Origin: a virus
IMG/VR virus record: IMGVR_UViG_3300010354_000046
Span: 62,001 to 126,000 of that record
DNA length: 64,000 nucleotides
Direction: 5' to 3' (one strand)
Numbering within the stretch: the first letter of the stretch is position 1; every line of letters begins with the position of its first letter. A program made the position numbers and the translations under genes. Shown here in pieces: positions 3,561 to 47,700 of this stretch. The notes beneath the pieces were generated by a model. It saw only the letters and a program-made list of their open reading frames with translations, was not told the DNA's origin and did not search any database.

Positions 3561-3567
3561 CCGTGTT

Positions 3568-4649: not shown

Positions 4650-4672
4650 GAACTTTTTTGTTCTAAATGTGA

Positions 4673-27690: not shown

Positions 27691-27747
27691 GTATTATCTC
27701 GTAAGTTTACTATATATCACAATCTCCCGAGTAGGTTTTAGAGTTTA

Positions 27748-27755
27748 GATAAATT
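27748..27755 (+). promoter_or_regulatory. Candidate promoter element for the plus-strand halogenase operon
   Basis: GATAAATT lies 20 bases before the ATG at 27776, with an AAGGA ribosome binding site between (27764-27768). It differs from the late consensus by one base. The 85-base region 27691-27775 must carry promoters for both divergent operons; on the minus strand TATATAG and a weak GAG ribosome binding site are the only candidates I see. Confidence 0.4.
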
Positions 27756-27775
27756 ACATAAACAAGGAAACTCAT

Positions 27776-29371
27776 ATGGACAGAAATAAGACGATTAAAA
27801 AAATAGTTATAGTTGGCGGCGGATCGGCTGGGTGGATGACTGCTGCAACATTAAAACATTTTTTTCCGTTAAATGAAGTAGTTGTTATTGAAAGTCCGGA
27901 TATTCCAATTGTGGGTGTCGGGGAAAGTACATTGGGAGGTATACGTTACTGGACCCAAGCCCTCGGTATTGATGAGAAAGATTTCCTGTCTTACACAAAT
28001 GGGTCGTACAAATTAAGTATTAAATTTACTGATTTTTATGATAAAGATGCAGGGTCTTTCCACTACCCGTTTGGAACGCCTGTGCTTACCGATGCGCCCG
28101 AAGGTCTTAACGAGTGGCAAGCAAAAAAAGTAATTTACCCCGACACGCCTGTGGAAGATTATTGCAGAACATTTTATTCGCAGATGCCTTTGATTGAAGG
28201 TAATAAGTATAGTTTGAATGAAGATGGCGATATTGACGGCTACCGAACTGATTCAGACGTAGCTTACCATTTTGATGCTCAGCTATTTGGAAGATGGCTT
28301 CGTGAACGGTACTGCATTCCGAGAGGAGTACAGCGTACAGAGGATACAGTCGTTGACATCAAAACCAACGACGACGGAATTGAAAAATTAATTTTAAAAT
28401 CAGGCCAAGAAGTTACTGCTGATTTATTTGTTGATTGCACAGGTTGGAAAAGTATGCTGCTAGGCGGTGCTCTTAAAGAACCGTTTACTTCTTATGAAGA
28501 CATGTTGCCAAATAATAGAGCATGGGCGGTACAATTGCCCTATGTAGATCCTGAAAAAGAAATTGAACCGTATACTAATTGTACTGCTATTGGACACGGT
28601 TGGTGTTGGAATATTCCGTTGTGGAGTCGTTTAGGCACTGGGTACGTGTACAGCGACAAGTATATTGACCCCGAAGGCGCTAAAGAAGAATTTAAACAGT
28701 ATCTTATGAGTAATAAGATGACTGTTCCTAGAACCAAAGAACAAGTAGATGCGTTACAGTTCCGTGATATCCAAATGAGAATTGGAATCCATGAACGCAC
28801 ATGGGTTAAGAATGTAGTAGCTATTGGGCTTTCTGCGGGGTTTATCGAACCCTTAGAAAGTAACGGATTGTTCAGCGTTCACGAGTTCCTTATGATGCTG
28901 GTAGCAGCTCTTGAAAGATCTCATACTAGCCAGTGGGACAAAGACGGTTATAACACCGCAACTTTATCTTTATTTAGAAATTTAGCAGAATTTGTAGCAT
29001 TACACTATGCCCTAAGCGGCCGCAATGATACAAACTACTGGGAAGCTATTAGCAAAAAAACATTTGATCCTGGAATGGTCAAGCGTATTCCTACTATTAA
29101 CAGAGGATTTGCAGACCTTGTAGATAAAAAGTTTTTTATGTTTGGACACAATTTACCCGGCGGCATTCATTGTATTGCAACAGGGATGAATTATTTTGTT
29201 ATGAATCGTGCAAACATTATACACGCCGAGTGGAAATTTGGGCATAACGCAAAACGTGTGTTGGATGAATTTATATTCAAAAGAAAATTCCTACAAGATA
29301 AATGGCAACGTGCAGCAGATCGATCTCCGACACTCTATCAATTTTTGAAAAATAAAATTTATAATGACTGA
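27776..29371 (+). CDS. Flavin-dependent halogenase C, full signature
   Basis: 531 residues, the most canonical of the four. Motifs: GGGSAGWM (14-21), GVGEST (47-52), Lys79 in GSYKLSIKF (the same number as catalytic Lys79 of PrnA and RebH), GWCWNIP (275-281, the complete WxWxIP signature) followed by RLGTGYVYSDKY, and GFIEPLESNGL with Glu361. The chloride-contact pair is Asn-Gly. This pattern strongly recalls VirX1, the halogenase of cyanophage Syn10, reported to prefer iodide. It lacks a reductase domain, so FADH2 must come from a separate host or phage flavin reductase. It leads the eight-gene plus operon, with a good Shine-Dalgarno, and overlaps the next gene by eight bases. Confidence 0.93.
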   Translation: MDRNKTIKKIVIVGGGSAGWMTAATLKHFFPLNEVVVIESPDIPIVGVGESTLGGIRYWTQALGIDEKDFLSYTNGSYKLSIKFTDFYDKDAGSFHYPFGTPVLTDAPEGLNEWQAKKVIYPDTPVEDYCRTFYSQMPLIEGNKYSLNEDGDIDGYRTDSDVAYHFDAQLFGRWLRERYCIPRGVQRTEDTVVDIKTNDDGIEKLILKSGQEVTADLFVDCTGWKSMLLGGALKEPFTSYEDMLPNNRAWAVQLPYVDPEKEIEPYTNCTAIGHGWCWNIPLWSRLGTGYVYSDKYIDPEGAKEEFKQYLMSNKMTVPRTKEQVDALQFRDIQMRIGIHERTWVKNVVAIGLSAGFIEPLESNGLFSVHEFLMMLVAALERSHTSQWDKDGYNTATLSLFRNLAEFVALHYALSGRNDTNYWEAISKKTFDPGMVKRIPTINRGFADLVDKKFFMFGHNLPGGIHCIATGMNYFVMNRANIIHAEWKFGHNAKRVLDEFIFKRKFLQDKWQRAADRSPTLYQFLKNKIYND

Positions 29372-29972
29372 TTTATATCCTTTATTTTCTCAGCCGGTAT
29401 TAACTGTTGATACGGACAAATCAAAGCTGGTAGATCTTGTATCTTATTGTGAAAATGTGCTACAATACAGATCTAACGCTGGAGGTAATTTTACTAGTTT
29501 GAATACAAGTGTATTAGATCTTGCCGAGTTCAGTGATGCAAAAGAACTGATTAACAACGCCATTAAAGTATACACCCAAGAAGTAATGTCCTGGACTGAC
29601 GAAGGTTTAAATTTCTTTGTAACTCAATCTTGGGTTAACAAAAATCCAAGAGGAACATGGCATCACGAACATTATCATTTGAATACAGTTTTAAGCGGTG
29701 TATTATATTTGCAAACTGTTGAGAATGATAGTATATCTTTTGTTAACAACTCGAAACCATTTTTTAAGTTTTACCCAACAGTTTCGAATATTTGGAATAG
29801 CGAAAGATTTAATATTGAAGCTAAAGATAATAGAGTAGTGTTATTTCCAAGTGGAATGTTGCACGGCGTGCCTTCGCATAATTCAAACTATAATAGATTT
29901 AGTTTGGCTTTTAACGTGTTTGTTAAAGGAAAAATTGGTAGCAAGGAAAATTTAACATATGTTGAATATTAA
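29364..29972 (+). CDS. 2OG-FeII_Oxy_5-like oxygenase, pair 2 (first copy)
   Basis: 202 residues. TQSWVNKNPRGTW is followed by a histidine-dense stretch (HHEHYHLNT, 100-108), then LSGVLYLQT and, at the end, LFPSGMLHGV with His167 and NRFSLAFN with Arg178. The 'SW.N....G...H.H.N..SG.lYL' layout is that of the 2OG-FeII_Oxy_5 group, with His103-x-His105-x-Asn107 aligning to the usual H-x-H-x-N. It starts inside the last codons of halogenase C, so the two are translated together. The substrate is unknown. Related to the gene at 30919, from which it is separated by the GT9-like gene. Confidence 0.75.
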   Translation: MTDLYPLFSQPVLTVDTDKSKLVDLVSYCENVLQYRSNAGGNFTSLNTSVLDLAEFSDAKELINNAIKVYTQEVMSWTDEGLNFFVTQSWVNKNPRGTWHHEHYHLNTVLSGVLYLQTVENDSISFVNNSKPFFKFYPTVSNIWNSERFNIEAKDNRVVLFPSGMLHGVPSHNSNYNRFSLAFNVFVKGKIGSKENLTYVEY

Positions 29973-29980
29973 GGACTAAG

Positions 29981-30922
29981 ATGAAAAGAAACACAGCATT
30001 TTTAATCAATGGCGGAGCGGGGCGTGTACTGAGTTCCATTCCTGCTTTCGAACTTTACGAAAAAGAAAATCCCGAGGATAATTTTATCATTGTTGTTGAA
30101 GGATTTATGGAGTTATTTAAAGGGCATCCAACTTTATATAAAAGATGTTACGAGTTTAGTCATCGTAATTTATTTGAAGATAAACTACGAGATATGAATT
30201 ATTTTCAGCCTGAGCCTTACCAAGTATGGGAATACTATAATCAAAAAGCTACAATTTCTCAAGCATTTGATATTGCTATTAATAAAAAGGGGCTTCGAGA
30301 AGTACCTAAGCCCACTATTGCTCTTACCACAGAAGAAAATTTAGGGGGCGCTGAAACTCTAAAAAATATTCGCAAAGACTTCAATAATAAAAAAGCCATA
30401 GTTATTCAACCCTTTGGAAGAGGGTCAAATATGAATCATCATGCTCATAATATCGATATGGGCGGTCGATCATTTATGCCCGAACATGCTGCCAAACTGA
30501 TCAAACGCCTACAGAAAAAATATTGTGTTATTGTTATGGACGAAAAACAACACGATTTTAAAGCATTAGGATGTGAAGACGTTGTTGTACAGATGACAGG
30601 AATGACTTTACGTCGATGGATGGGCGTTATTAACTCTGCTAGCTACTTTGTCGGCTGCGATAGTATTGGTCAGCACATTGCGTATGCCTTAGGAAAACCG
30701 GCTACAATTATCATTGGGTCAACATTTAAAGAAAATGTGTCGTACCCTAACGCTAAGAATTTTAATATTATTGACCTAGGTGAAGGCCGTAAAATGTACA
30801 GCCCTATTAGAATGTGTTTTAATGAAATTGCAGATGTTAACAACGATAAACTAATGCACTTAAAAGATTCAGATTATGATAAAATTGTTGCTTCTATCGA
30901 AAACGGAATGAATAAGGTATGA
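29981..30922 (+). CDS. GT9/heptosyltransferase-like glycosyltransferase
   Basis: 313 residues with a two-domain GT-B look. The N-terminus LINGGAGRVLSSIPAFELY resembles the GD.l...P.....k opening of heptosyltransferases. A middle strand IVIQPFGRGSN and the C-terminal VGCDSIGQHIAYALGKPATIIIGST (about 224-248) match the nucleotide-sugar-binding end of family 9 (usual form D.G..H.A...g.p.v.lfG.t). It would transfer a sugar to a glycan or small molecule in the cytoplasm. It is bracketed by the two pair-2 oxygenase genes (8-base gap and 4-base overlap) and followed by a carbamoyltransferase, which usually modifies sugars. Sugar and acceptor are unknown. Confidence 0.7.
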   Translation: MKRNTAFLINGGAGRVLSSIPAFELYEKENPEDNFIIVVEGFMELFKGHPTLYKRCYEFSHRNLFEDKLRDMNYFQPEPYQVWEYYNQKATISQAFDIAINKKGLREVPKPTIALTTEENLGGAETLKNIRKDFNNKKAIVIQPFGRGSNMNHHAHNIDMGGRSFMPEHAAKLIKRLQKKYCVIVMDEKQHDFKALGCEDVVVQMTGMTLRRWMGVINSASYFVGCDSIGQHIAYALGKPATIIIGSTFKENVSYPNAKNFNIIDLGEGRKMYSPIRMCFNEIADVNNDKLMHLKDSDYDKIVASIENGMNKV

Positions 30923-31527
30923 CGTCATTTGAAATTATTCCTTTATTTCCTCAAGCGTTATATAGGGCTGTTTTTCGGCCCTTAACTTCCACTGAGATTG
31001 AAATAATTGATAATTTCCCTGTTGAAAAGCAACAGTTGGGTAATCATACTAGTCATGTACCTTACTTTTTAAACGAACCTGGATTAGAAAATTTAAAAAA
31101 AGATTTAGAAGAGCATATCGATACATATGTAAGAGAAATAATGAAAGTTGACTACAATGTGTATATTACCAATTCTTGGAAAAATTTAACCAAGCCCGGT
31201 GAGCAGCATATGATACACAACCATTCAAACAGCATTATTTCTGGATGTTTGTACCTAAGATCGAGTCACATCCAACCTACTATATCTTTTACTAGAGGAA
31301 ATTTTCCTTATCTGCTTGCATTTGAGCCAACAGAATTTACGCCATTTAACGCATTAGAGTGGACCATTCCGGTTGAGGATAACAATATTATTTTATTCCC
31401 GTCAACTATGCATCATTGTGTAAAGACCAATCAAAGTAACAAAGAAAGAATGAGTCTTGCATTTAATACATTTGTTAGAGGTAACATCAGGACTCAATAT
31501 ACAGGAGCAGATTTAATCTTAAAATAA
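30919..31527 (+). CDS. 2OG-FeII_Oxy_5-like oxygenase, pair 2 (second copy)
   Basis: 202 residues, the same length as the gene at 29364 and alike in plan: NSWKNLTKPGEQHMIHNHSN gives His100-x-His102-x-Asn104, then IISGCLYLRS, LFPSTMHHCV with His166, and ERMSLAFNTFVRGN with Arg177. The N-terminus FEIIPLFPQALY is typical of the group ('lFp.pvy'). It overlaps the GT9 gene by four bases and lies three bases before the carbamoyltransferase gene. Known members of this group are mostly uncharacterised, so the reaction is inferred only as an Fe(II)/2OG oxidation. Confidence 0.75.
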   Translation: MTSFEIIPLFPQALYRAVFRPLTSTEIEIIDNFPVEKQQLGNHTSHVPYFLNEPGLENLKKDLEEHIDTYVREIMKVDYNVYITNSWKNLTKPGEQHMIHNHSNSIISGCLYLRSSHIQPTISFTRGNFPYLLAFEPTEFTPFNALEWTIPVEDNNIILFPSTMHHCVKTNQSNKERMSLAFNTFVRGNIRTQYTGADLILK

Positions 31528-31530
31528 ATT

Positions 31531-33321
31531 ATGAAAAAACCTATTTGGATTGCAGCAATTACTAGAGGGCATAATGCCAGTGTATGTTTACTAAAAGACG
31601 GAGAAATTGTTTTTAGTATTGAAGAAGAGAGATTAAGTCGACACAAATATGACGGCGGTCCTTTTGCTTCGATGATAAAAATTTTAGAATATACGGATAA
31701 ACTTGATTATCTTGTTGTTGCACACACTCAAACATTAGACGACACCGCAGGAAAAATTGACTTCACTGGAGATAACGTTTATACAGGTCTTGCAAGAAAA
31801 CTAGGATTAATCAATCGCAAAGAAAACATTTATAAACATCCACAAGTTATTGATTTAAGTCATATACACCATAAACTTCATGCTGCTTGTGCATTTTATC
31901 GAAGTGGTTTTGAAAATGCAGTTGCAGTTATTGTAGATGGCGCAGGAACATTTTTACCGTTAAGTGTAAACAACGAAGCAGTAATTGGCTGGGAAACAGA
32001 AAGTCTTTACGACTGTTCCTACCCTAGTAATTTTACAACATTATATAAACACATTGGGCTACGAGGACCTAATTCTGGTATGTTAGTTAAGAATTTTGAT
32101 AGTTCAATGTATGACGAGCCTGGTAAAACACACGAAGCGTTTATCACAGACCGTGCAGGTATTACTAAAGTATACGAAGCAGTTACCCAGTACTGTGGAT
32201 GGAGCCCTATTGAAGCCGGTAAAACTATGGGGTTATTTCCATATGGTAACAAAACAGACAAGATACCTAAGTTATTTGACGAATCAAGTGTAAGGCCGGT
32301 ATCGAACAGAAACCTTATTGTTCCTACTTATCCTAACGGTGCTGTGGTTAATCATGGCTTGTTTGAGTATTTAAATGAGCACGAAGCACAAGACATTACA
32401 TATCTTGATAACCGTCGAGACTTAGCTTATGCCTGTCAAACACAAACTCAAGAACAGTCGCTTAAATTAATAAAATATGCTGTTGAAAAAAGCGGGAATA
32501 AAAATGTAGTGTTTAGTGGAGGTTACGGTTTAAATTGTGTTGCCAATTACTATTATCTAAATGAGCTTAGAAAAGACGGTATTAACTTCTACGTTGAACC
32601 TATTAGTAATGATGCTGGAACAGCGATTGGTGCAGCATTAATGTGGTGGCACAAACTTACTAATGATTGTACTATTAGAAAAGGAAAAACACTTTATCTT
32701 GGTCCTAAAAAAACTTATAGTAATGAAGAAATTTATAAGGAAGTTAACAAAGCAAATGTACAGATAAAAGATGCATCTTATGCAGACATTGTCAAGCTGT
32801 TAACAGAAAAAAACATTGTTACACTATTCCAAGGATCTAGTGAAAACGGTCCAAGAGCATTAGGAAATCGTAGTGTACTATTTGACCCTAGGTTTGCAGA
32901 TGGTAAAGACTATGTTAATAATGTAAAACACAGAGAATATTTTAGGCCGTTTGCAGGCAGTATTTTACAAGAATTTGTACACGAATGGTTTGATTTACGT
33001 GGCATGGAGGACACTCCTTTTATGATGTATGCTGTAAATTGCCAACCAGGAGTAGAAGAAAAAATACCAAGTATCATTCATGTCGACGGAACTTGTCGTA
33101 TACAAACAGTAACACAAGAACAAAATTATCATTACTATAATTTGATTAAAGAATTTTATAATCAAACAGGATGTCCAATTATCTTTAATACTAGTTTTAA
33201 CTTAGGTGGTGAACCATTAGTTGAAACATTAGAAGATGCTATATGGACCTTAACAAATTCGGACATTGAATATTTGTTCTTACCTGAGTATAATAAATTA
33301 ATCATTGTTAAAAATAAATGA
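31531..33321 (+). CDS. NodU/CmcH/TobZ-family carbamoyltransferase
   Basis: 596 residues, a full-length two-domain O-carbamoyltransferase. N-terminal Kae1-like domain: RGHNASVCLLKDG (12-24), EEERLSRHKYDGG (31-43), the metal-site HHKLHAACAF (His113 and His117) and IVDGAG (Asp136). Later motifs: VFSGGYGLNCVAN, then SSENGPRALGNRSVLFDPR of the C-terminal YrdC-like carbamoyl-adenylate domain, and FNTSFNLGGEPLV. The family uses carbamoyl phosphate and ATP to carbamoylate hydroxyls on sugars or antibiotics (NodU on Nod factors, TobZ on tobramycin, CmcH on cephem). Next to a glycosyltransferase it most simply decorates a sugar. Three-base gap before, four-base overlap after. Confidence 0.92.
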   Translation: MKKPIWIAAITRGHNASVCLLKDGEIVFSIEEERLSRHKYDGGPFASMIKILEYTDKLDYLVVAHTQTLDDTAGKIDFTGDNVYTGLARKLGLINRKENIYKHPQVIDLSHIHHKLHAACAFYRSGFENAVAVIVDGAGTFLPLSVNNEAVIGWETESLYDCSYPSNFTTLYKHIGLRGPNSGMLVKNFDSSMYDEPGKTHEAFITDRAGITKVYEAVTQYCGWSPIEAGKTMGLFPYGNKTDKIPKLFDESSVRPVSNRNLIVPTYPNGAVVNHGLFEYLNEHEAQDITYLDNRRDLAYACQTQTQEQSLKLIKYAVEKSGNKNVVFSGGYGLNCVANYYYLNELRKDGINFYVEPISNDAGTAIGAALMWWHKLTNDCTIRKGKTLYLGPKKTYSNEEIYKEVNKANVQIKDASYADIVKLLTEKNIVTLFQGSSENGPRALGNRSVLFDPRFADGKDYVNNVKHREYFRPFAGSILQEFVHEWFDLRGMEDTPFMMYAVNCQPGVEEKIPSIIHVDGTCRIQTVTQEQNYHYYNLIKEFYNQTGCPIIFNTSFNLGGEPLVETLEDAIWTLTNSDIEYLFLPEYNKLIIVKNK

Positions 33322-33833
33322 TACAACATTTTTCAGAATTTGTTGAGCCGTGGCTGCATAACAAAGCTAAAGAACAATTGCTGAGTCCTATGCTGGACTG
33401 GAATTTTCCTACATTTGGTGGTCAAGATACTGATATAAAGTATGCTTGTTTTGGTAGATGTGCTCTAAATTTAAGTAAAAATTATGTAAACTGGAATAGA
33501 GTTGAATCGTTAACTTATGTGTTAGATAACTGGTTAGAGCGTAACAAGAATTGGTTTCAAGTTGATCTTGTCGGTAGATGTATAATGAATTTTTATACTC
33601 CGGGCCAGCAAACAGAGTGGCACACAGATAATACTTATAACATGCCAGGACTTTATAGCCTACTGTATTATGTAAATGATGCTGACGGTGGAACAGAATT
33701 TAAGGATCACAAATATTACCACCAGGAAAACACAGGAATATTGTTCGATTCTTATACATTGCATAGACCAATAGTATCTACGGTGCCCCGAAGAATAAGT
33801 GTAAGTTGGATAATTCAAGGACGAGTATTATGA
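33318..33833 (+). CDS. 2OG-Fe(II) oxygenase, prolyl-4-hydroxylase-like, pair 3 (first copy)
   Basis: 171 residues with a canonical facial triad: His102-x-Asp104 in TEWHTDNT, His149 in SYTLHRP and the 2OG-binding Arg158/159 in VPRRISVSWII. LYYVNDADGGTEF is the usual strand-turn between the first His/Asp and the distal His in P4Hc-type enzymes. It overlaps the carbamoyltransferase stop by four bases, and its own stop (ATGA) overlaps halogenase D. Its near-twin lies just beyond halogenase D. It hydroxylates or otherwise oxidises an unknown substrate. Unlike the other two pairs it has HxD, so ordinary hydroxylation is more likely than halogenation. Confidence 0.88.
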   Translation: MIQHFSEFVEPWLHNKAKEQLLSPMLDWNFPTFGGQDTDIKYACFGRCALNLSKNYVNWNRVESLTYVLDNWLERNKNWFQVDLVGRCIMNFYTPGQQTEWHTDNTYNMPGLYSLLYYVNDADGGTEFKDHKYYHQENTGILFDSYTLHRPIVSTVPRRISVSWIIQGRVL

Positions 33834-35017
33834 AAGTTGCAGTATTGGGCGTGGGCACAGCTGGAATTATGTCGCTGTGTCATGCATTACGATGGTTATG
33901 TCCAAAAGACAGTACTGTAACTTCAATATATGATCCCAAGTTTCCAATTTTAGGAATTGGAGAAACATCTCAACCTGGATTCCAAACTTTATTATTTGAG
34001 TCAACCGGTTTCACTTTTTTAGACGATGCTGATAAATTGGATGCAACCATTAAATTAGGTGGAATGTGGAAGAATTGGAGAGACGATGACTTTAATGCGT
34101 GTCTTACTGCACCATCTTATGCTATACATTTTAATAATTTTAAATTGAAAGAATTTTGTTTTTCGAGGTTTAATAAAAAATACCAAAGTAAATTTTTAGT
34201 ATCCGAAGGTAACATAGACAGTATAACTAATGCAGGAACTTGTGTGCTAGTAGTTGTCGACGGCATAGAATATCAATACGACTATGTTATTGATTGTAGA
34301 GGTTATCCTACAGACCTGAGTGAATACTATGTTGTTGAAACTCCAACTGTAAATAGTGCATTGGTAAACATAATTAATGAACCGGGTACATGGAACGCTA
34401 CTGTTAACCAAGCTACAAAGAACGGCTGGATGTTCGGGCTACCTTTACAAACAAGACAAGGGTGGGGATATCTATATAATGATAAACTTACTACAAAAGA
34501 AGAAGCAATAAAAGATATTGAAGAAATCTTTAATAAAGAGAACATAGAATTAAAAGAATTTAAATTTAACAGTTATCATGCTAATACATTTTTTGACGGT
34601 AGAATTTTAAAAAACGGAAACAGGGCGTTCTTTTTTGAACCAATAGAAGGGCAGGCGGGATTTTTTTACGAAATCGCCTTGCGGTATCTTGTAGATTATG
34701 TGTATGGCCAGTGTTCTGTAGCAGATGTTAACAGACACCTTTTAGATGCAGCAAAAGATTTAGAATTATTCATTAATTTTATATATCACGGCGGCAGTAA
34801 GTTTCAAACAACTTATTGGAGTCATATATCAAAAGTGGCTAGAGAAAAACTAAACAACAACGAAAAATGGAATTATATTGTTTCTACCGTGAATAATTAT
34901 TTAAAATTTGGTGGGCAAGAGCCGCCAACTAACACTATAGGTCGTTGGAGTGTTCACCACTGGAAAATGTGGGATAAAAAGTTAGGCTATAATTATTTTT
35001 ATGATAAAAACATTTAA
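33830..35017 (+). CDS. Short flavin-dependent halogenase-family enzyme D
   Basis: 395 residues from the ATG at 33830, chosen over 33806 because AAGGA lies eight bases upstream, the frame then starts MKVAVLGVGTAG, and the start overlaps the preceding stop. It is about 100 residues shorter than A-C, with most of the loss in the middle and C-terminal lobe. It retains GVGTAG (7-12), GIGETSQPG (42-50), Lys75 in DATIKLGGMWKNW and Glu273 in FFEPIEGQAG. The signature is GWMFGLP (199-205), then RQGWGYLYNDK. The chloride-contact pair becomes Gln-Ala, the most altered of the four. A reduced halogenase or a flavin oxidase/monooxygenase are both possible. Confidence 0.75.
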   Translation: MKVAVLGVGTAGIMSLCHALRWLCPKDSTVTSIYDPKFPILGIGETSQPGFQTLLFESTGFTFLDDADKLDATIKLGGMWKNWRDDDFNACLTAPSYAIHFNNFKLKEFCFSRFNKKYQSKFLVSEGNIDSITNAGTCVLVVVDGIEYQYDYVIDCRGYPTDLSEYYVVETPTVNSALVNIINEPGTWNATVNQATKNGWMFGLPLQTRQGWGYLYNDKLTTKEEAIKDIEEIFNKENIELKEFKFNSYHANTFFDGRILKNGNRAFFFEPIEGQAGFFYEIALRYLVDYVYGQCSVADVNRHLLDAAKDLELFINFIYHGGSKFQTTYWSHISKVAREKLNNNEKWNYIVSTVNNYLKFGGQEPPTNTIGRWSVHHWKMWDKKLGYNYFYDKNI

Positions 35018-35513
35018 TAAATTTGTACCCGATTGGCTACACCGCCGGGCGCATGAACAGTTACTAAGCCCGTATGTAGATTGGCACTTTCCTGGAAACG
35101 GGGGCTATTACGGTGACATCGATAAAGCATGTTTTGCTAAATTGTTGTTTGATGAAGAGCGAAATTATTCAGATTTTTCAGGAGTTGATTCTTTAGTTTA
35201 TGTGCTAGAATCTTGGTTAGATCAAAATAAAAGTTGGTTTAAATTTGAAAGATTGAACCGTTGTATATTAAATTTTTATACACCGGGTATGACTATCGGA
35301 TGGCATACAGATCACTCTAATTCTAGGTACCATACATTAATTTATTATGTAAATGACAGCGACGGAGGAACTGAGTTCGAGACTGTCAAAGTCCCACATA
35401 GAGAAAATTCCGGTGTTATATTAAAATCAAAGGACTCACATAAAAATATGGAGTCCTCTGTTCCGCGACGCATAAGTGTCGCATGGATTTTAGTCGGCGA
35501 TATTATGGATTAG
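35001..35513 (+). CDS. 2OG-Fe(II) oxygenase, prolyl-4-hydroxylase-like, pair 3 (second copy)
   Basis: 170 residues, collinear with the gene at 33318 (both contain LLSP, DGGTEF and VPRRIS at matching positions). Triad: His102-x-Asp104 in IGWHTDHS, His147 in KSKDSHKN, Arg156/157 in SVPRRISVAW. It begins 17 bases inside the end of halogenase D and is the last gene of the plus operon, overlapping the end of the tail-assembly chaperone gene by 11 bases in convergent orientation. The two copies bracket halogenase D, suggesting that an oxygenase-halogenase unit was duplicated or inserted here. Confidence 0.88.
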   Translation: MIKTFNKFVPDWLHRRAHEQLLSPYVDWHFPGNGGYYGDIDKACFAKLLFDEERNYSDFSGVDSLVYVLESWLDQNKSWFKFERLNRCILNFYTPGMTIGWHTDHSNSRYHTLIYYVNDSDGGTEFETVKVPHRENSGVILKSKDSHKNMESSVPRRISVAWILVGDIMD

Positions 35514-36030
35514 TAGCTTTGCCCCACTTGTCCTCAGGATTCCAAGGTGCTTTGGGCCAAGGTACTCCAAGATGGCTTTTAAGTTTTGTCAAATCAATAT
35601 TATCTGTCATATCTCTTAGAGCCTGTCGATAATCGGCCCATGCTTGCTTATCTTCTGGACTCAGTGGACTATCAGGCATTTGTGTCCAATCACTCGTAAC
35701 AAATTTATGTAATCGTTGTCCGTGTATCCATCGGCGATATTTTTCTCCCGGGCTAATTTCTGTAAATACCCAAGTTTGTTCAATACTACCATCAGGATTT
35801 TTTACAATTTCTCCCGGAGCAACTTCTTCCCATTCTTCTACTATCGGAGGATAGGCGTTTTTAATTTCGACAATACTTTGAGAAGCCAGTAACCCAGGAG
35901 TTAACTCGTTGAAAGTCAACACCCTGGTTTGAGGATCTTCAATAGCAAATAAATGTCTTACATTTTCTTCGATTAAGGGAGGGCCCGATGGCAACCCGTC
36001 TTCGTCAATGTACGTGTAAAGTTTCTGCAT
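35503..36030 (-). CDS. Phage tail assembly chaperone-like protein
   Basis: 175 residues. The C-terminus has the signature of phage tail-fibre assembly chaperones: KFVTSDWTQMPDSPLSPED, WADYRQALRDMTDNID and VPWPKAPWNP (usual form 'R...L..sDwtqlpD.pl...q.aW..YRqaLRdiP......WP..P'). The N-terminal half is a short beta-rich region likely to contact the fibre. It follows the fibre gene at 36062 with a GGAG ribosome binding site, the usual fibre-then-chaperone order. It would help fold or trimerise that fibre. The gene is read toward, and slightly overlaps, the island's last oxygenase gene. Confidence 0.8.
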   Translation of the reverse strand: MQKLYTYIDEDGLPSGPPLIEENVRHLFAIEDPQTRVLTFNELTPGLLASQSIVEIKNAYPPIVEEWEEVAPGEIVKNPDGSIEQTWVFTEISPGEKYRRWIHGQRLHKFVTSDWTQMPDSPLSPEDKQAWADYRQALRDMTDNIDLTKLKSHLGVPWPKAPWNPEDKWGKATNP

Positions 36031-36061
36031 TCATAACTCCATTATACGTTATATTTAAAAA

Positions 36062-38386
36062 TTAACCCGATGAATTAGGGTAAGTTCTGGTTGCTGGCCA
36101 TACAATTCGAACGGCGCCTTTGCCGCCCCAACCTCCTCCGTGTGATGTGCCACCGCCGCCACCACCGCCACCATAGAAGCCACCGCAATTATAACCATGG
36201 CCGTTACCGTTAGCCCATGGCTCGCCTGCAAGTCCGCATGTTCCGTTAGATCCAAACTGGCCGCCAGTTCCTGTAGAATGCCCGTTAAACGGACTGCCGC
36301 AAGCACCGTTATTACCTTGAGCACAAATGCCAGTGCCACCGCCACCACCAGTTCCATAAGTTGAACTATGATGTGAGCCAGCTGATCCGCCACCGCCGTA
36401 GCATCCAGTGTGGCCAGAGTTACTATACCAGCACTGATTTGGACCGTAGCCACCACCGCCACCACCGCCACCAGCGGTGTTAGGGAATGTAATAGTTCCT
36501 GGCCCGCCTGGCCCGCCATTACAGCCACAACCGGTACAGCAACCGCAATGTCCGCCGCCACCAATAATACCTGGGAAGCATGAATATCCGCCAGCTGATT
36601 GACTCCAGCAGCCGCCGTTACCAACTTGAACGGTATAGCTTGAGCCGCTGCTAACAGAAATACTATTTTGATATGTTAATCCGCCGCCGCCGCCGCCACA
36701 AACAGCCCAGCCGTAATAGCCTCCACCGCCAGCACCAATAACAGCAACGTTAACAGAGTTAACACCAGCTGGAGCGGTCCATGTATATGATTGTGTACCA
36801 CCGTTTTGGTTAGATTGGGCACCTTCATATAAGCTAGCACCTGGTGGAGGAGGGGCAATACTAAATGCTGAAATAACGCAAATACATTGGAAACACATAC
36901 AGAATCCGCAGCCGCAACTTAAACACTGGCAGCATAGCGCACTTTGTCCGCTAACTTGTAAGTAACCTAATGTACCATGGCTTGTTAAGCTAGAAGCTGT
37001 AACGTTAGATGCTAGTGTACCGCCTTGGATACAGCAAGCAACTGTTGTGTTAGCACACACAGAACAGTTAACGTTAAAGTTACTTGGGTTCCAAACATAA
37101 GCATCGCTTGAACTGTTTGCTCCCCATAACCATGTTGGTTGTCCAGACTGTCCGTTCCAGTGGAATGCTTGTGTTGTACTATCGTTATACAAGCGACCTG
37201 CTGTACATGCACATCCACCAATGTTCATACTTGCTGCTAAACCGCTAAAGTTAGTAGCAGTAAATGTTGGAGCAGCTCCGCTGTTGATGTTTTGTGGTAA
37301 GCTAATTGTAATATTACCAGTTGCTGCACTAACGCTAACTTGGTTAGTTGTACCAGCTAAACTTAGTACACCAGTATTTGTTAGTGTAACAGATCCACTT
37401 GGGCCACTAATTGTACCACCACCAGACATACCTGTGCCAGCACTGACTGTTACACTGGTTAACACACGATTGTTATTGTCAGTAACGTTGCTACTAAAGC
37501 TACCAGTTGTTGCACTAATACCAGCACCAAAAGTTCCTGAGCTAGCAACGTTTAAGATGCCGCCTGCACGAATGTTTTCACTTACACCTAACCCACCAGT
37601 AATTACTAACGAACCGGTAGAAGTACTTGAACTACCAATGTTTGCAGTAATATTAGACTGTGCATTAGCTTGAAATGTTGTAAAGTTACCTGCTGCTCTT
37701 GTAGTAGCACCAATACGCATATTATCAATATCGCCCGTGCCGCCAGAACTGATAGTAATTGCAGCACTACCTGTTGTAGTATGACTTTGGTTGTTTGCGC
37801 CAGTGTTAGCAACAATTGCACCAGTAAATGTAGCTGTACTGTTAGCGGCCAATGTTGTAAATGCACCAGTACCACGTGTAGTAGCACCAATGTTCACATT
37901 ATCCATTGTACCAGTACCAGCAGATGTAATTGTAACACTACCGCCTGTTGATGGAGTAATTGTAACGTTTGAACCACTTGGGTTCATTGTGATTGGGCCA
38001 CCGTTTGCAGTAAACCCGCCGTTCATGTTAACAGCACCACTAAATGTAGCACCAGTACGAGTAATATTTCCACCCTCGTTGTTTGTTACCATGTAATTAG
38101 TACCATCAGATACTATTGTAAATGATGAGTTATGGGGAATTGTTTGCGATGTTGCGGATGTAAATCCGTTACCCATAATAACACCAGTTGGCGTTGTAAT
38201 TGTACAGTTGCCTCCTGTGTTATTATAAAATGTTTGTGACCAACCTTGAGAATATGCTGGTGTAACTACTGTTACAGCATATCCCGGTGTTCCGGTCATT
38301 GTTATGATGCTACCATTGATTGCATATGTAAACGTGGTAGCACCGGTAACAGTTAAGTATAACGATACTGTATTATAACGTGCCAT
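36062..38386 (-). CDS. Tail fibre/adhesin with Cys-pentad and Gly-rich C-terminal domains
   Basis: 774 residues. The N-terminal 100 residues and a Gly/Thr/Ser-rich shaft (110-380) contain repeated 'IGATTRGTGAFTT' type steps, typical of trimeric fibre shafts. Around 405-440 a 'QAFHWNGQSGQPTWLWG' motif appears, common in phage fibres. Next is a cysteine-dense block (about 485-503) with four successive C-x-C-x-x pentads, then a Pro hinge. The last 220 residues are glycine-rich with 5-8 Gly runs and more Cys, resembling the polyglycine-II receptor-binding tips of T4-like gp38 adhesins. A chaperone gene follows. Likely the distal receptor-binding fibre. Cysteine is abundant: about 37 residues across the protein. 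Confidence 0.8.
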   Translation of the reverse strand: MARYNTVSLYLTVTGATTFTYAINGSIITMTGTPGYAVTVVTPAYSQGWSQTFYNNTGGNCTITTPTGVIMGNGFTSATSQTIPHNSSFTIVSDGTNYMVTNNEGGNITRTGATFSGAVNMNGGFTANGGPITMNPSGSNVTITPSTGGSVTITSAGTGTMDNVNIGATTRGTGAFTTLAANSTATFTGAIVANTGANNQSHTTTGSAAITISSGGTGDIDNMRIGATTRAAGNFTTFQANAQSNITANIGSSSTSTGSLVITGGLGVSENIRAGGILNVASSGTFGAGISATTGSFSSNVTDNNNRVLTSVTVSAGTGMSGGGTISGPSGSVTLTNTGVLSLAGTTNQVSVSAATGNITISLPQNINSGAAPTFTATNFSGLAASMNIGGCACTAGRLYNDSTTQAFHWNGQSGQPTWLWGANSSSDAYVWNPSNFNVNCSVCANTTVACCIQGGTLASNVTASSLTSHGTLGYLQVSGQSALCCQCLSCGCGFCMCFQCICVISAFSIAPPPPGASLYEGAQSNQNGGTQSYTWTAPAGVNSVNVAVIGAGGGGYYGWAVCGGGGGGLTYQNSISVSSGSSYTVQVGNGGCWSQSAGGYSCFPGIIGGGGHCGCCTGCGCNGGPGGPGTITFPNTAGGGGGGGGYGPNQCWYSNSGHTGCYGGGGSAGSHHSSTYGTGGGGGTGICAQGNNGACGSPFNGHSTGTGGQFGSNGTCGLAGEPWANGNGHGYNCGGFYGGGGGGGGTSHGGGWGGKGAVRIVWPATRTYPNSSG
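36878..36935 (-). repeat. Segment encoding four C-x-C-x-x pentapeptide repeats
   Basis: On the minus strand the codons read CQCLS, CGCGF, CMCFQ, CICVI in direct succession, giving Cys at alternate spacings of two and three residues for about 20 residues. The x positions differ, so this is a maintained pattern, not a slippage repeat. Confidence 0.75.
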
Positions 38387-38401
38387 TTTTTATCCTAATC
38401 C

Positions 38402-38722
38402 TTATGATGTTGAAGTTTCAATACCATAAACGGTGCAGCCAACGTTAGCTGCGCTTGAATATACTACAATATTTAGTCCAGCATTTAATACCAAACCTGT
38501 ACGCTCAAATACACCAAGCGGAACAATAACTGTATCATACTCAATGTACTCTTGTGCATTAGGTGTTGCTGTTGTAGAAATTGCTAGTCGTATTGTACAT
38601 GCGGTAGTATTTCTATTTGTTAATGAGACATTCAGTACAGTATAGTACCCTGTTGGTACTGTATAAACTGTAGTTAGCGTAGTTGCTGGAACCGCCGAAA
38701 CGCCTAATCTTCCTGTTGCCAT
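38402..38722 (-). CDS. Small tail-fibre-associated virion protein
   Basis: 106 residues, all-beta in appearance (VYTVPTGYYTVLNVSLTNRN; IRLAISTT; GLVLNAGLNIVVYSSAANVG), beginning MATGRLGVSAVPATTLT. This shape, a small jelly-roll-like protein next to a fibre gene, is common in marine phages and may decorate or cap a fibre. It shares the look of the 116-residue protein at 57310. Shine-Dalgarno GGAG is present, and short gaps to both fibre genes indicate co-transcription. No named family recognised. Confidence 0.6.
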   Translation of the reverse strand: MATGRLGVSAVPATTLTTVYTVPTGYYTVLNVSLTNRNTTACTIRLAISTTATPNAQEYIEYDTVIVPLGVFERTGLVLNAGLNIVVYSSAANVGCTVYGIETSTS

Positions 38723-38739
38723 GTTTTATTTCTCCAATT

Positions 38740-41700
38740 TTATCTTGATAAAAAGAATCCAAGGGCAACGGGAGCTCCGTCAATGCCGCCTGTAAAATTC
38801 ATTTTTGCTGTCACGTTTAATTGTCCGCCACTTGTAGTAGAAATCGTGTTATTAGCAATATACACGACACCTGCCGTTAGTGTATTTACGTTCAATTGGC
38901 TTAAACCGCCACCAATTTGGGCAGTAATGTAACTCTTAATTGCCCTCTGTGTTGGTAAAATATTATCACTATTTGCTGTAAAGTACGGATCTGTACTAAA
39001 CTGTGTAATAGTTGCACTTCCAACACCTAAACTCAAACCACTTAACTGCAAGGATTGTAGTCCCGACAAGTTGAAAGCGTTAGCGTTCAATGTAGCTGTA
39101 CCTGTTGCCTGCTGCACTCCAAACAAGTTACCAACGTTAAAGTTACCGTCTTGGTCAGTACTTGTAAAGAACACACGACCACCGTTAGTTGCCAATGTTT
39201 GCTTGTTAATATCAGCTAAACTTGGATCAACATATGGGTAATTGGTCCTTGCCTGGTTTCCAGTACCGATGTATAAGAAATCATGTCCAGTTAATCGAAC
39301 CTGACTATACTTAATTGTCATAGTCATACGGTTTAAATACCCCGGAGCATTATACACCGTTAAAGCTGGACTAATTTGGAACACCGCAGTATAATTTCCA
39401 GCTCCTGTAGGAGGCATAGAAAGAATATTACTAATTGTAACTAATTTATAGTATTCTCCAGGAATACTTGCAAACGAAACGTTCGAACCAGCTTTTGGAA
39501 TGTCAAACAAGTTAGTAACTGCAATAAAGTTACTTGCTTGATAGAAATCCGCACGACCGTCACCTGTCAATAGTGCAGTTGCAGTAGTGTTCAATGTACC
39601 TCTGTTAGTAAATGTTGGGTTACCAAGAACACCATCGCCCATTCTTGCTCTAATAGGAGCAGCTACAGTATCATTAGGATCAATGATAGTTTGTATTGGA
39701 GCAGCCTTATATGCACCAGACAAACCTGTTGTAGTATTTAAAATAACAGAAGTTGCGCTACCAGGTGTTGCACTTACTTTAAATTGTGTACTGGTAATAG
39801 TTGAACCAATGACATAATAAGTTACATCAGTTGTTAAACCATAACTGTCTAAACCTGTAAATTCAACTGGTTGACTGTCTACAAGATTAGTTGTGTTATC
39901 AGTAGTAATTAAATTTGTAGTTGCAGTTGTGGCTGTGACACTACCGTATGGATATCCAGAACCAGGTTCAATCATTCGAATTTCTTGTATATTTCCAGAT
40001 TGTGCTCTAATTCTTCCTAGTGCTTGGGCGCCAGTTCTCATTGAAGCTGCAATTTGTCCGCTATTAGAAGCTACCGCAACCCAAATAGGCTGGCTATTAG
40101 GATTACCAAATGCAATACCTTGCCATTGACTTGAACTTGGCATAGCCCTTACAGTCCAGTTAATGCCGTCAGGGCTTGTAGCACATATATTTGTTCCTGT
40201 GGCAATTGCAAAGAACAGTCCTTGGCCGTAACTAACCCTAGTCCATGTTTGACTTGAACTTAACACGCTAGTAGCGGTTCCAGTTGCTGTACTAACAGCA
40301 TACCAATTTGCACCAAAATCTAAACTGTAGGCTACGCGGCCTGTCGCTGCAAGAGCAACAAATCGTCCGTTTCCGTAAGCAAGGCTAGTCCATGTAGTAC
40401 TTGCAGGCAATGCTCCTCCAGCAGTCCAACTTGAACCGTTAGTACTATATGCTGTAGCAGTATTTCCTGTACTAATTGCAACAAAAGTTGAGCCGCCATA
40501 TTCGACCGCACTATATGTGCCTGCGCCCAAAGTTGGAATTGTTCTAGAAACCCAGTTAGATATAACACTACCAGTACTTGCTGCGCTAGCTGTGCCGCCT
40601 ACAGCAACGTATATGCCACCACCATATGCAGTATCTGCAAAAGTTGTAGCTGGTAATGTTCCTCCAGTTGTCCAGTTAGCACTAACCGCAGAGCTTCCTA
40701 GTAAGTATGCTGTGCTAGTTGTGCCTGGAATTATTGAAACAAATGCAGCAGTAGTGTCATTAATTGTTACTGTTGGTACACTAGTGTAACCTGAACCACC
40801 ATCTGTAACATTAATTTGATATACTCCGTATGAACTAGTAGTTAGTACAGATATAGCTGTTGCTTGACTTGTAGCGCCGCCACCACTTAGTGTAACAGTT
40901 GGTGGAACTAAATATCCTCGCCCGTAAGTGTTAACTGTTATATAAGTAACTCTATCAGTTACAGCAGTAACAGTTGGTGCTGTTAGATATCCAGATCCGT
41001 AACTGCCTCCATCAGCTGGCTCAACGCTGACACTGACAATTGCTCCATTTAGTACTGTAGCTACACCTACTGCATTAGATCCAGTAGCACTGGTAAACAC
41101 AATAGTCGGTGGGCTAGTGTATCCAAAACCACCATTGACAACAGTAATACTAGCTACTTGATCTGCACCTGCTGCACCGGTTGAGTTAGCTGTTCCTAGA
41201 ACTGCTGTTAAAACTGCACCAGTACCTCCCAAACCACCTACTGTAGCAGTAGCAGTTGCACCTTGGCCGCCGCCGTATACTGGTTGAGTCCATGCGCCGC
41301 TGCTTGGCAGAGTTCCGCCTGCGGTCCATGTAGTACCGTTCGTGCTATACGATGTAGCTGTTCCATTAGCTAAAGCAATAAATCGATCTTTAGCGTAATA
41401 TACAGCACCCCAAGTTGTTGTAGCACTTAAAGTTCTTGCTGTAGCAGTATAACCTGGAGCAGTATAATTAATACGAGGTTCAATAATGTATGTTGTGGTT
41501 AAATCTAAAGGAGTAACCAATGGAGTACCAGGAACAACATGATCCCACCCTGCTTCATACAATGTTACAGATCCAGTTGCTGTTGATAGAGTAGGAGATC
41601 CTCCACCTTGTGATGTTGATACTGTAAACTGAGTTGCACTACTAATTGCGGTGACATAGTAAAGTGTATTAGCAGTTAATCCACCAATAGCACCGTTAAG

Positions 41701-44700
41701 ATAAATTTGTTGATTAACATATAATGTGCCAGTACTTGCAACAGTAATCAAGTTTGTAGTTACTGTTGTATTTGTAATGGTTAACGGAGTAAAGCTATCT
41801 TTATAAACTTTAGCAACTTTAGAACCATTGCTATAATCTAAAATATTAGCGTATTGTCCGACACCAGAACCAGCAGTAATATGAACACGCATGCCAACAT
41901 ATGCAGTACTCAACGCAGTATCAGTTGCACTAATGGTAATTGTTGATAAATCACCGCCCTGTGCAGCATTAATAGCAGTTCCGTAATTCTGTCCGCCGTA
42001 GCCATTGCCGTCATTTTTATCAATTAATCGTGTTTCATAAACAGCATCGTCTCTAAATTCGTCGCCAATTGAAACTACGTTAAATCCGCTGCCGCTAACT
42101 GCTACGTCAACGTTGGAGTAAGACTGACCTGCATTTAAGTATTCAAATCGATAAACTTTATTAATACCGTCTGTAATAACATTCTGCACTAGTGCCTGTG
42201 CAGATCTATTATCTAGATTTGCATATAAAGGAATTTCAGTACTATCGGTTCCTTCAGCAATAACACCGTATACACCATAAGAGCTATTGCCGTTAGTTGC
42301 TCGCATACGTCCGCCAAGTTCTGCCAAGTAACCTGAATAGCTGTAGTAACAGAATACTGAAACTAATTCAGTTAACGACTGAGAACCTGTACACCATACA
42401 CCAATTCCGTCTGAAAGAATTGTTGTATAGTCATTGGCAACAATAGATCTGTTGCCGCCTGCATGTATTGCGCCGTCAATCTTCATACCAGTACAGCCTG
42501 TTCCAAACAGAGACACGTTTTGGCAATAACAGCTTCTTTCTAATACCCAGGCTGCGCTATCGTTTGGTCCAAATCCTGGATCCAAGCTAGTATATGCGCC
42601 AGCAGTTGGTCGTTTAGTTCCGTAATCGTTTTCTTCTGTCAAATCACCGTTTAGTCCGTTAACTGTCATGTTACGAATACCGCAGGCGTTTCTTACATAG
42701 AACATGTCTGATAGTGCAGAACCCTCAACAGCATTTTTGTAAAGTCTTGCAGCACGTAATGATTTATAATTTCCTGTCCATTGTAAATCATATACAAGTG
42801 CTAATACAAATTCTTTCATATCACGCTGGCAAGCAGTTGCATCAAACTTATAACGAACTGTTAGACTTGGACTTGCAACTGTGCTAAGAGTCACAGGAGT
42901 TCCTCCAAGTGTAGTTGCAACAGTAAAGGAAGAATTACTTGGAGTAGTTGCAACATAATATGTTGTTGCAATAGAAATGCCTCCTGCACTAACTCCAGTG
43001 AATATTACTGGATCATTGATAGATAAATTATGAGGAGCAGACATTGTTATAGCAGAAATACTAATACTAGCAATTGCGCCACCGTAATTTTCTGTTACAT
43101 AAGCAGAAGCTTCTGCTGCTAAGAAATCTGCGTTAGCTCGAAGAATTTCTGCACCTTTAATAGTACTTAGAGTATTGTTGTATGTTACAGTACCGTAAGT
43201 TTCAACAACATCACTAATTCCTTGATCAACAATCTTAATAAATGCTGCCATTAATGCACGAGATTGTGCTTTTTGTGTTGGATAATTGACTAGAGATGTG
43301 GAAATCAACGTTCTTAAATATCTAAAAGTAGCTACAGTTGCTCGCTTTTGCTCTCCGATTACTTTTGAAGCTTGTGCTCTGTAATAACTCATAGCTGCTT
43401 TTACTGTTTGGAAATTACTTCCTAACATAAAGTCATAACCGATTGCATCAACAACATACCCTATATCTCTCAAACATGTGCTCGAGTTATAAACAAGTGT
43501 TGGATAATTAGTTGAAATAAAAGAACTAATATTTCCTTTAATTGTTGTAAGAGTGCCGTTTAATATGGTAAACGCATTTACCGCTGTGGCACTTACTTGA
43601 CTAAATGTAGGAACAATAGTTGTTTCTGCGGTAATAGTTAAACCAGTTCCGTTAGACAATGTTGTAATTGGTGTTCCTGCAAAACTAGTAGAAACAGTAA
43701 ATGTAGTAGTCAACGGCGTACTTACAACATAGTATGTTGTACCAGATACTAATCCACTATTAGAAGTTTGAGGAACAATAATATCACCAACTTTAAGTCC
43801 GTGTGCTGAGCCAGTTGTTAATGTTGTGCCACCTGCAATAGTTGTAATTGTAACAGTTGGTACTCCTGTTGTATCGCCTAAATCAATGATATTGGTGATA
43901 ATATCAACAAGTACACCAAGTTGTGTTGCTGCGCCAGCTGATCCGTTTACTTGCAATACATCTTTACGAGTCTGTGCAACTGTTCCTTGATAAGGACTTG
44001 ATGCGTATCCAGTTACTGAAACAGAATCAACTGCAATGGCCTGCACTAACGCTTTTAGATATGCGTATGCTGCAAGTGTTGCGGTTTTTTCGCTCGAATA
44101 AACTTGTAATGTTCCAAAAGAGTAATATGCTTTTCCAGCCATTTTGCTAGCATATGTACCGCCGTATTTTAAATCATAGACTAATGCATCAATGATATAA
44201 CCTACATCTTCTGAACATTTAGCAGAGCTATATTCAAGAGCTGGATATGCAGAACTTAAATAAGCAATAATTTCAGATTTAATAAATTCTTTATTATCGT
44301 TAATTAATGTCTCGGCGCCTGCAAATCCGCTGTTAATATTTGATGGATTTGGCCATACAAAGTCAACAACAGCACCGCCTTTAATATATTTTGTTACATC
44401 TGTTAAAATTTTCTGTGCTTGAACAGTAGCACCAGAAGATGCAATAGCCGATGCTTTGTATTTCATGAAATGGATTGCGCCAAGACATGCATCTTTTTGG
44501 CTTGAAATTACGTATTCGGCAGATGTTGTTGGTCTATAATAGGCCATACCAGCTTTAATTGCGTTAAAGTTGGTACCTAAAAGCATATCGTACCTAATTG
44601 CATCAACTATTAAACCAGCATCTCTGTTTGATAGCGCAGTATCAAAAGAAACTTCTTGATAGAACTTTTTAATCCAAGCAGTTGCATCTGATTGGATTTC

Positions 44701-47700
44701 AGATTTAGCAGCCACTAATGCGTCCGATGCTGTTTGTAAACTAGTGGAAACCCATGTTAAGCAAGGCTCAATGCTGGCAGGAGCAACACCGTTATTGATA
44801 TAGTCGATGACATTCTGAACACGATCCTGCATAAAAGTACCTGCATACGGGCCGCCGAGACCAACTGTACCAGTAGTAACTTGTGTTTCAGTATTTCCTG
44901 GACTAACAGTTACAGCTAATTTATTTGCAATCTGTCCGACAATCACTTTTAGACGTGTTAGGCCAGCTATTTCTGCTGGCTTTGTTGCCAGAGGAATAAC
45001 TAGTAAATTGTTGGAGAAATAAGCACTTCCTGCAATTAAACTTTGTCTGTTTCCACCGTATGTAACATCGTGTCTTACTGCATCTAAAATAAATCCAATA
45101 TCTTCAAGGCAAGATGCTTTTTGTGCGGCGGTAAATCCGTTCCAAATAGTATCATACCCGTTTGTAGGATCTGCTAACCACGCACTAATTTCAGCTTTGA
45201 TAAATGCATAATTTTGTAATACTTGTGCTCTTGAATCACCGTAACTTAAGGTATCACCTGTTGTGTTTCCTGTAGTTGCATAAGCAGTATGAATCAAAGT
45301 TGTATTATAATTTGTTGGGTTTGGCATTACAAGTGTTGGAACTGCTGTCAAACCAGATGCTAAGATATCATAAACTATTTGGGTTGATTTTTCAATTGCA
45401 GTAGCAGCATCGGCGCTGCCATTAGACCCCATAGGCAATGTTGTGATTTGTAACTCATCATTACCAGTTGTAGGTGTTATTGTTGTATTTGAAATAATGT
45501 CTGGTAATAAAGATTTTACTCTGTTAATAGCAGAAATAGTTTTTGATTTATCACTGACCAGTATTGATACTGGCGCAGCAGGCTGCACGACACTAGTCCT
45601 TAATTCGTCACCGACTAGTGCTGTGAATTCAGGGACATATATTGGAAGAATTTCATTATATGTCCCTGTTTTAATCATTATGGTAGTGTTTGGCTTAGTT
45701 GATGTTGGTAATGCAGTAGCGGATCCTTGATTTAGTGCTACGTCAATTAAATCAACTAACCCTGATAATTGTGCCAACGCAGTTGGTTCACTTGTAAATG
45801 CCCCGTCAATAATTTGTTGGGCACGATTTGCAATGCTGATACCGTTAAGTGCCTGGTAGTTGTTTGAAGGAGCAGTATTTGATAAAACGTTTCCTAGTAA
45901 CGTTTTAAGGTACACATGCGATTGAACAAAATTAGGAATTCTATATCTTGTTGTGGTTGTAACAAATGCATTTCCTGCTGCTGTAAAATATGCTCGGCCG
46001 GCAGCAACAGTTTTATTTGTGCCGCCGCGAGTTAAATCATATACAATTGCATCGTATATGATACCAGCATCTCGTTCAGTTTTTGTTCTATCATAATCTA
46101 ATCTACCAGTCATTGTACCAGTAGCTGATCCTGTCAATGCTCTAACAACACCACCATACGTATTACTAATTGTAAAATGTGTATTATCGATAATTGTTTT
46201 TACATAATAAACTGTGCCTAATGTAATACCGCCTAATGCAGTACCGCTAAACACAATCGGCATATTAAGATTTAATCCTGCGGTAGAATCGCAAGTAAAT
46301 TCATAAGTGCCATTATCGTGAGAAGTAATGTTAGTTTGGCATGTATAATACAGATAGTTATCAACTTCTTTCAAAATGAACTGTTTATTTCTTTGCAATA
46401 AATTTTTTGCTTGAGGATTTAGGTAACCTTCTTCAATCTGTTTACATGCATAACGAACTGTTTTCCATGGTTTGTCGATTGTTAAGCCGCTGGCTGGTGC
46501 TGGTTCATCTCTTCCAAGTGGACCAACATAAACTAAATTATTAATTAAACCGTAATTTGCCCAAGCAGGGAAACCGTCTGTACTACGTAAAATTTGTCCG
46601 TCGACGCCAACTGGTAATCTAGTTGGTCCATTGGCACCGTAATAAATCATATCTCCGGTGGTTGTTAGTACATTAACCTCTGAACCAATAGTTAAAATGT
46701 TCCAATAGCTAGCTGTAATATCATTATCTGGCCTATTTCCATTAGCAGCAGTATGCGATACAACACACACATAACTGTTTCCGCCAAATAACACTACATC
46801 ACCTAGTACATATACCGTTCCGCTATTCCATGTTGCGCTACGGCCGCTCCACGTAAATGTGCTTATTAATCCGCCTACTCCAATACCAGTAACGGTAATT
46901 AAAAGATCGTTGGCTGGAGTAATACCACCTAGCGAAGATCCTAATATTTTAATTACATTAGTAGCAGCATAGCCTAAACCTTCTTGTCCTGACACAAGTG
47001 ACACAGAGTAAACTGTTCCCGAGCGTGTAACATCAAATTGTGCTCCTGTGCCAACACCAGAAACATTAGTTCCAGTTAAAGCTGTATAGGTTTGAGGATT
47101 ATTAGTCCAAAAGAAGCCGCTGTTTAATCGGCTCCAGTAAGAAGCATTCGGTGGCTGTTCTCCTGTATTGTCTGCTGATGCAACGTAGGTGTATCCATGT
47201 AGTCTTACTACGTCACCAACTTTATAAGCAGTGGCAATGTCCCATTCGCTACGGAAGTTAAAACCGGTAGTAAAAACATCCCAGTCGCTAGGGTTAGTAG
47301 TTGGTTGTTTATTAGTATTATTTGTTTTAGCAATATAACTGTAACCACCATAAGTGACTGTGTCGCCTATTTGGTATGTTGTTGAGCTGTTCCAGCTATT
47401 TTCAAATTCAAAACCTTCAGTAAATTGTGCCCATTTTGTTCCGTCAAATGATGCAGCAGAAGTATGATGAGTTGTACAAATCCATGTGCCTGCACCGTAT
47501 TTTACAACGTCATTAATTTTATACCTGACGCTTGCACCACTCCAGTTTCCAAGATATATAATACCTTGATTAAATATTTCCCATTTATTTTGATCGGCTT
47601 CTAGTCCGTTTGAGACTGTAGCTGCACTCACGTGAGGAATGGCGCAGATATAGACAAAACCTCCATAAGAAACAAAGTCATTAAGTGCGTATCTTGTTCC

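Follow-up and report, generated by a model that had tools for sequence, protein, structure and literature searches.

Tandem cysteine pairs below a predicted Pam3-like head probably clamp the strands of a viral tail fibre

Introduction

Among the closest described counterparts of the fibre studied here is gp24 of cyanophage Pam3 (PDB 7YPX, 7YFW), a trimeric protein with TNF-like and glycine-rich domains that needs a dedicated chaperone, gp25, with which it forms a 3:3 complex (PMC9608196). In that account, the largest contribution to gp24 trimerisation comes from a helical domain ahead of the head (PMC9608196). Other distal fibres and spikes are described with different devices: the needle of T4 gp37 holds seven iron atoms along its length (PMC6957217) and gp37 has HxH motifs (PMC11705849), and the report on gp124, the trimeric tailspike of the myophage Milano, lists disulfides 24-24, 24-26 and 26-26 for a single CxC (Cys24, Cys26) that lies close to the N-terminus and beside the attachment to the baseplate (PMC10811340). 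Outside the phage world, the cysteines of metallothioneins are described as clustered in CC, CxC and CxxC motifs (PMC10119931).

Here we analyse a viral DNA stretch of 64,000 nucleotides (positions 62,001 to 126,000 of IMG/VR record IMGVR_UViG_3300010354_000046; the window), in which a tail-fibre gene encodes four tandem CxC pairs just ahead of a Cys-rich head. A phage fibre with a glycine-rich head and a chaperone is known; the tandem CxC neck and the Cys-rich head appear to be new, and we found no report of a cysteine ladder in a phage fibre in the openly licensed literature. The initial annotation knew of no such ladder in phage fibres and pointed out that these fold in the reducing cytoplasm; this is no bar, since the trimeric Milano tailspike is listed as having inter-chain CxC disulfides (PMC10811340).

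Results

Fibre gene and cysteine ladder

The four successive C-x-C-x-x pentads that the initial annotation reported are present in one open frame: CQCLS-CGCGF-CMCFQ-CICVI occupies residues 486-505, with an extra Cys just ahead, which puts the ladder cysteines at 485, 486, 488, 491, 493, 496, 498, 501 and 503 (Table 1). The pentads account for eight of these Cys, which on the minus strand run from 36931 to 36878. The coding frame of 36062-38386 is confirmed by a 773-aa relative (L001), and both flanks of the ladder can be aligned with more distant relatives, which supports the same frame. Residues 481-515 contain no charged residue and no His, and the spacers between the cysteines are hydrophobic.

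Table 1. Features of the fibre locus, in window coordinates.
Feature	Position	Strand	Basis
Tail-fibre protein carrying the pentads (774 aa, 30 Cys)	36062..38386	-	Open frame; L001 full-length, 92% identical; phrog_4474, E 2.4e-27
Module of the shaft ahead of the ladder (residues 392-456); additional Cys at 392, 394, 441, 444, 451 and 452	37019..37213	-	Alignment
Cys ladder, residues 485-503, C-CQCLS-CGCGF-CMCFQ-CIC	36878..36934	-	Translation, pattern scan, Cys counts
Predicted head at the C-terminus (from about residue 514 to 774), with a TNF-like beta-sandwich, a glycine-rich domain and 14 Cys	36065..36847	-	AlphaFold2, structure match, Cys conservation
Downstream neighbour (175 aa), a probable chaperone of tail-fibre assembly	35503..36030	-	PF16778 Phage_tail_APC, E 1.1e-12; phrog_4912 tail fiber assembly, E 1.2e-10
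Small tail-fibre-like protein, 106 aa, just upstream	38402..38722	-	phrog_11338 tail fiber protein, E 1.8e-8

Cysteine makes up 3.9% of the fibre, against 0.85% (177 of 20,747 residues) over 43 chosen window ORFs, and the fibre is a clear outlier among the large ORFs; the 8.1% of a 111-aa ORF at 17556-17891 is higher still. Across the same 43 ORFs, CxC occurs seven times in the fibre and once each in the 111-aa ORF and a 3191-aa ORF. Within the window, a three-pentad DNA pattern hits this place alone (two overlapping matches), and it gave no match in 100 shuffles; about 4e-9 four-pentad matches are expected from the composition of the protein. Given nine clustered cysteines, the exact arrangement has a P of 3e-5 to 2e-4, and an any-lag periodicity test, made after the fact, gives P 0.01 to 0.07. 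The cysteine cluster is thus far beyond chance and, the cluster granted, the strict period of five is moderately so.

A period of five is also that of pentapeptide repeats, in which residues i-2 and i point inward. Each chain might accordingly form one coil of a square beta-helix of this kind with both cysteines of every pentad inside, an arrangement that C-x-C-x-x matches and for which four pentads supply exactly one coil. It is highly improbable: at E up to 1, Pfam gave no pentapeptide-repeat match for the fibre, one coil on its own would be unusual, and the number of pentads varies among relatives.

Head fold and placement of the neck

The AlphaFold2 head model, made from 12 related heads, shows a beta-sandwich with block means of up to pLDDT 84; the glycine-rich loops of the head model have low pLDDT, and the whole-model mean is 46.9. 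For residues 380-774, modelled as a single chain, the mean is 37.5 and the ladder lies at about 22-28, so that we use only the head sandwich of these models. Its best match is the Pam3 fibre (7ypx_A; Z 10.0, 133 residues, rmsd 3.1, 29% identity; VIA-align), whose chains rank first (Z 10.0 and 9.4), followed by the Bxb1 tail tip (7.8) and ALK/LTK glycine-rich domains (6.6-7.7), with the remaining rows at 4.5 or below; Foldseek pairs the head with the Pam3 fibre at E 0.018-0.023. As in gp24, the modelled TNF-like sandwich continues into glycine-rich loops. The predicted head fold is Pam3 gp24-like, in a model of medium confidence.

Profiles cover the same region. phrog_4474, a family of unknown function, matches residues 429-772, that is, head and neck, and also matches four of five further proteins scanned (the exception is L181); PF21722 Gly_rich_2 stays below its gathering cut-off of 24.3 bits in both the fibre (16.9) and a relative, L151 (20.0).

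Where does this leave the pentads, which the initial annotation had placed in the fibre tip? They are not at the tip. The head alignment starts at residue 77 of the Pam3 protein, which in the window fibre falls about 11 residues past the last ladder Cys. Because a Pam3-like head follows from about residue 514, the ladder would form the neck between shaft and head, at the site of Pam3's trimerising helices; this placement is our reading of two alignments. The window fibre thus resembles gp24 in a TNF-like and glycine-rich head at the fibre end and in an adjoining chaperone-family gene, and differs from it in what precedes the head, a long shaft and then a Cys ladder where gp24 has a helical bundle.

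Neighbouring genes

The gene after the fibre matches PF16778 and tail-fibre-assembly phrogs, as expected of a dedicated chaperone of the Pam3 type, and ORFs of similar size adjoin and follow the fibre in L003, L007 and L009. The Pam3-like head and this adjoining gene bear out the identification of the protein as a fibre. Further along the window, two very long adjacent structural ORFs (38740-48315, 3191 aa, and 48366-56897, 2843 aa) have similar N-termini (MAEFK...), and 14482-17451 encodes a tail sheath whose nearest sequence in the phage collection is from Agrobacterium phage Atu_ph07 (46% over 87%). Beside the tail genes, 22682-35513 holds a run of ORFs that we take to resemble oxidoreductases, oxygenases and a carbamoyltransferase.

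The ladder in relatives

We compared 12 distinct heads, namely that of the window fibre together with the distinct Cys-rich ones from the loci that relative searches found; L156-L186 (31 of 47 loci), which are more distant glycine-rich proteins and mostly Cys-poor, were left unaligned. Three of the 12 necks carry CxCxxCxC, one of them cut by a contig end; three others have CxC at different spacings, and six are without CxC. The closest, L001, reads C-CQCLS-CGCGT-CICFG-CITTQ and keeps eight of the nine ladder Cys, that is, three and a half pentads: the ninth (503) is a one-residue gap, and a Cys is gained at 509. Over the whole shaft it keeps 15 of 16 Cys, including these eight, despite spacer changes F495T, M497I and Q500G. 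In L006, the truncated one, CACFQ-CLCIV is left, and its four ladder Cys align with window Cys. A different neck is common to L002, L245 and L246, with CVC, CFC and CFC plus a single C at wider matching positions; between L002 and L245, all 12 shaft Cys are kept. The same head sits on a neck that is CxC-free in L143, L146, L149, L150, L151 and L155; three of these necks (L143, L149, L151) contain a He_PIG Ig-like domain, and those of L146 and L155 have no Pfam match.

At the level of sequence, the ladder motif is partly conserved. The shaft retention in L001, set beside its three and a half pentads, indicates that conservation is stronger for the CxC unit than for the number of four pentads; the range of counts (four, three and a half, at least two, then other spacings or none) makes the regular ladder no general rule, and the six CxC-free necks imply that a cysteine staple is dispensable. 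The initial annotation named, as results that would refute it, close homologues with unconserved Cys or with a random number of pentads. L001 and L006 mostly keep the Cys, so that neither came about cleanly, but the number of pentads is not fixed.

Could the cysteines merely be small hydrophobic filler in a tight neck, free thiols whose pentads are an accident of one lineage? Three findings fit this explanation: in other fibres the corresponding upstream sites hold residues such as Ala, Ser, Tyr and Thr; L001 has already lost half of pentad 4; and six necks are CxC-free, three of them with an Ig-like domain. We nevertheless consider it unlikely: CxC pairs accumulate in two different neck types and persist there, Cys is rare elsewhere in window proteins, and, of the 29 Cys common to L001 and the window fibre, eight have a changed codon and still encode Cys.

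Cysteines of the shaft module and the head

In two pairs (window fibre and L001; L002 and L245), 27 of 28 shaft Cys are kept, versus 273 of 320 Ala, Ser and Thr (Fisher one-sided P 0.077); a stronger retention of shaft Cys is suggestive only. The cysteines of the upstream module look acquired. An alignment of 34 rows was drawn from 56 loci after removal of duplicates and of loci that lacked a clean match to the module; with the window fibre and L188 (the same protein as L001) excluded, the six module sites in the 32 other fibres hold one Cys in 192 cells, three of which are gaps. By this alignment, Cys has been acquired in the window fibre's module.

The head carries a conserved set of Cys too: four occur in all 12 heads, and a further eight are present in 10 or 11 of the 12. 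In L151 (the same protein as L009), seven otherwise conserved head Cys are absent together and other Cys are gained; this joint loss may reflect linked pairs or a cluster. Some relatives have odd numbers of head Cys (13, 15), a poor fit to full intra-chain pairing. The same Cys-rich head also occurs in record G001 (345369 bases), a 345-kb virus, and so crosses genome-size classes.

Wider searches

A DNA scan of viral contigs for four pentads returned at least 120 stretches. Among the stretches listed, which contain 286 in-frame matches, a longer frame overlaps in another reading in all except L055 (861 aa) and L135 (123 aa), which makes them look like out-of-frame low-complexity DNA; by eye, no fibre like the window's was among them. 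In genome contigs, 588 stretches fit a pattern and none was confirmed, and searches for further ladder relatives brought up no contig beyond those in which the ladder was known. In the isolated-phage collection there was a single weak match, in Ochrobactrum phage vB_OspM_OC and to the shaft module only, and none to the head in a BLAST search that masks low complexity; a head profile matched neither this phage nor Atu_ph07, and a phrog_4474 scan matched neither of two phages, nor the controls. PDB sequence searches with the head, the whole protein and two ladder peptides (window, L006) gave no usable match, NCBIfam nothing for the fibre, and Rfam nothing in 35000-39000.

Two other ORFs with clustered Cys came to light. 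L181 encodes, at 3438-5015, a different glycine-rich phage protein of 526 aa with about 41 Cys, including CCHCVC and CHIVCVC, and no Pfam or PHROG match. The window's own record, near 4734 of G000:C1 (L257, 814-1794), has a 326-aa ORF with a metallothionein-like CPTCDCKPCEC followed by a charged run.

Discussion

What would the four tandem Cys pairs below the head do? They probably clamp the fibre strands, by disulfides or by bound metal. At a probability of about 0.45, we favour a trimeric fibre in which neck cysteines of the three chains are cross-linked, most likely as inter-chain disulfides made after lysis. The fibre would be a trimer ending in a Pam3 gp24-like receptor-binding head; the pentads would be the neck that joins shaft to head, where gp24 has its trimerising helical bundle; the cysteines of three chains would meet there; disulfides would form in the oxidising exterior once the cell has lysed; and the cross-links would hold the glycine-rich head as a stable trimer.

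We place disulfide ahead of metal for two reasons: (i) CxC disulfides are listed for Milano gp124; and (ii) the whole distal fibre of the window virus, head included, is Cys-rich. With its seven CxC, the window fibre would share with gp124 a CxC in a trimeric receptor-binding protein; the single CxC given for gp124 lies at the attachment end, whereas the four tandem pairs lie beside the distal head. Against disulfides stand the low pLDDT of the ladder, the six CxC-free necks, the P of 0.077 for retention and the odd numbers of head Cys. The geometry sets a further demand: with a period of five, CxC pairs that follow one another along a plain beta strand would face alternate sides, so that the simple column of stacked Cys rings proposed in the initial annotation would require every repeat to contain a bulge or a turn.

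The same cysteines might instead take up Zn(II), Cu(I) or Fe while the fibre folds in the cytoplasm. The result would be a metal-thiolate staple, with cysteine in the role that HxH has at the iron sites of T4 gp37. A 2-3-2-3 spacing of Cys is more typical of metal-thiolate proteins, and CxCxxCxC is the spacing in SmtA and vertebrate metallothionein (MT). T4 gp37 is a precedent for a fibre trimer built round metal, such a site would form in a reducing cytoplasm, and the L006 ladder fragment matches PF02069, prokaryotic metallothionein (E 0.0034). That match covers 13 residues only and scores 18 bits against a cut-off of 33, the window and L001 ladders have no PF02069 match, and no PDB chain matches the window or L006 ladder peptides. 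Hydrophobic spacers and the lack of charge or His around the ladder argue mildly against a classic metallothionein cluster, and this explanation is doubtful.

The likenesses are correspondingly partial. As in the distal T4 fibre, so far as its motifs are described, x-separated pairs of (here putative) ligands are repeated along the protein; they are Cys instead of His, the head is different, and none of the 11 His of the window fibre forms an HxH motif (translation read by eye). With metallothioneins (PF02069, vertebrate MT) the ladder shares its spacing but is embedded in a fibre of 774 aa, between hydrophobic spacers and short of the PF02069 cut-off. A bolder version, in which a metallothionein-like ladder takes up several metal ions among the three chains, is rather unlikely; loading with metal inside the host cell would then lock the receptor-binding head, and might trigger it too, and the virion would leave the cell with thiolate-bound metal.

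Under either chemistry, disulfide or metal, this fibre is a small and recombinantly tractable case: beside its receptor-binding head, cysteines may do the work of helices, or of HxH iron sites, in clamping the trimer. If disulfides close the neck, as we favour, what is listed for Milano would hold at the distal end of a fibre as well, and the fibre would seem to mature after lysis; if metal does, the ladder would parallel the iron needle of T4, with cysteine as the ligand.
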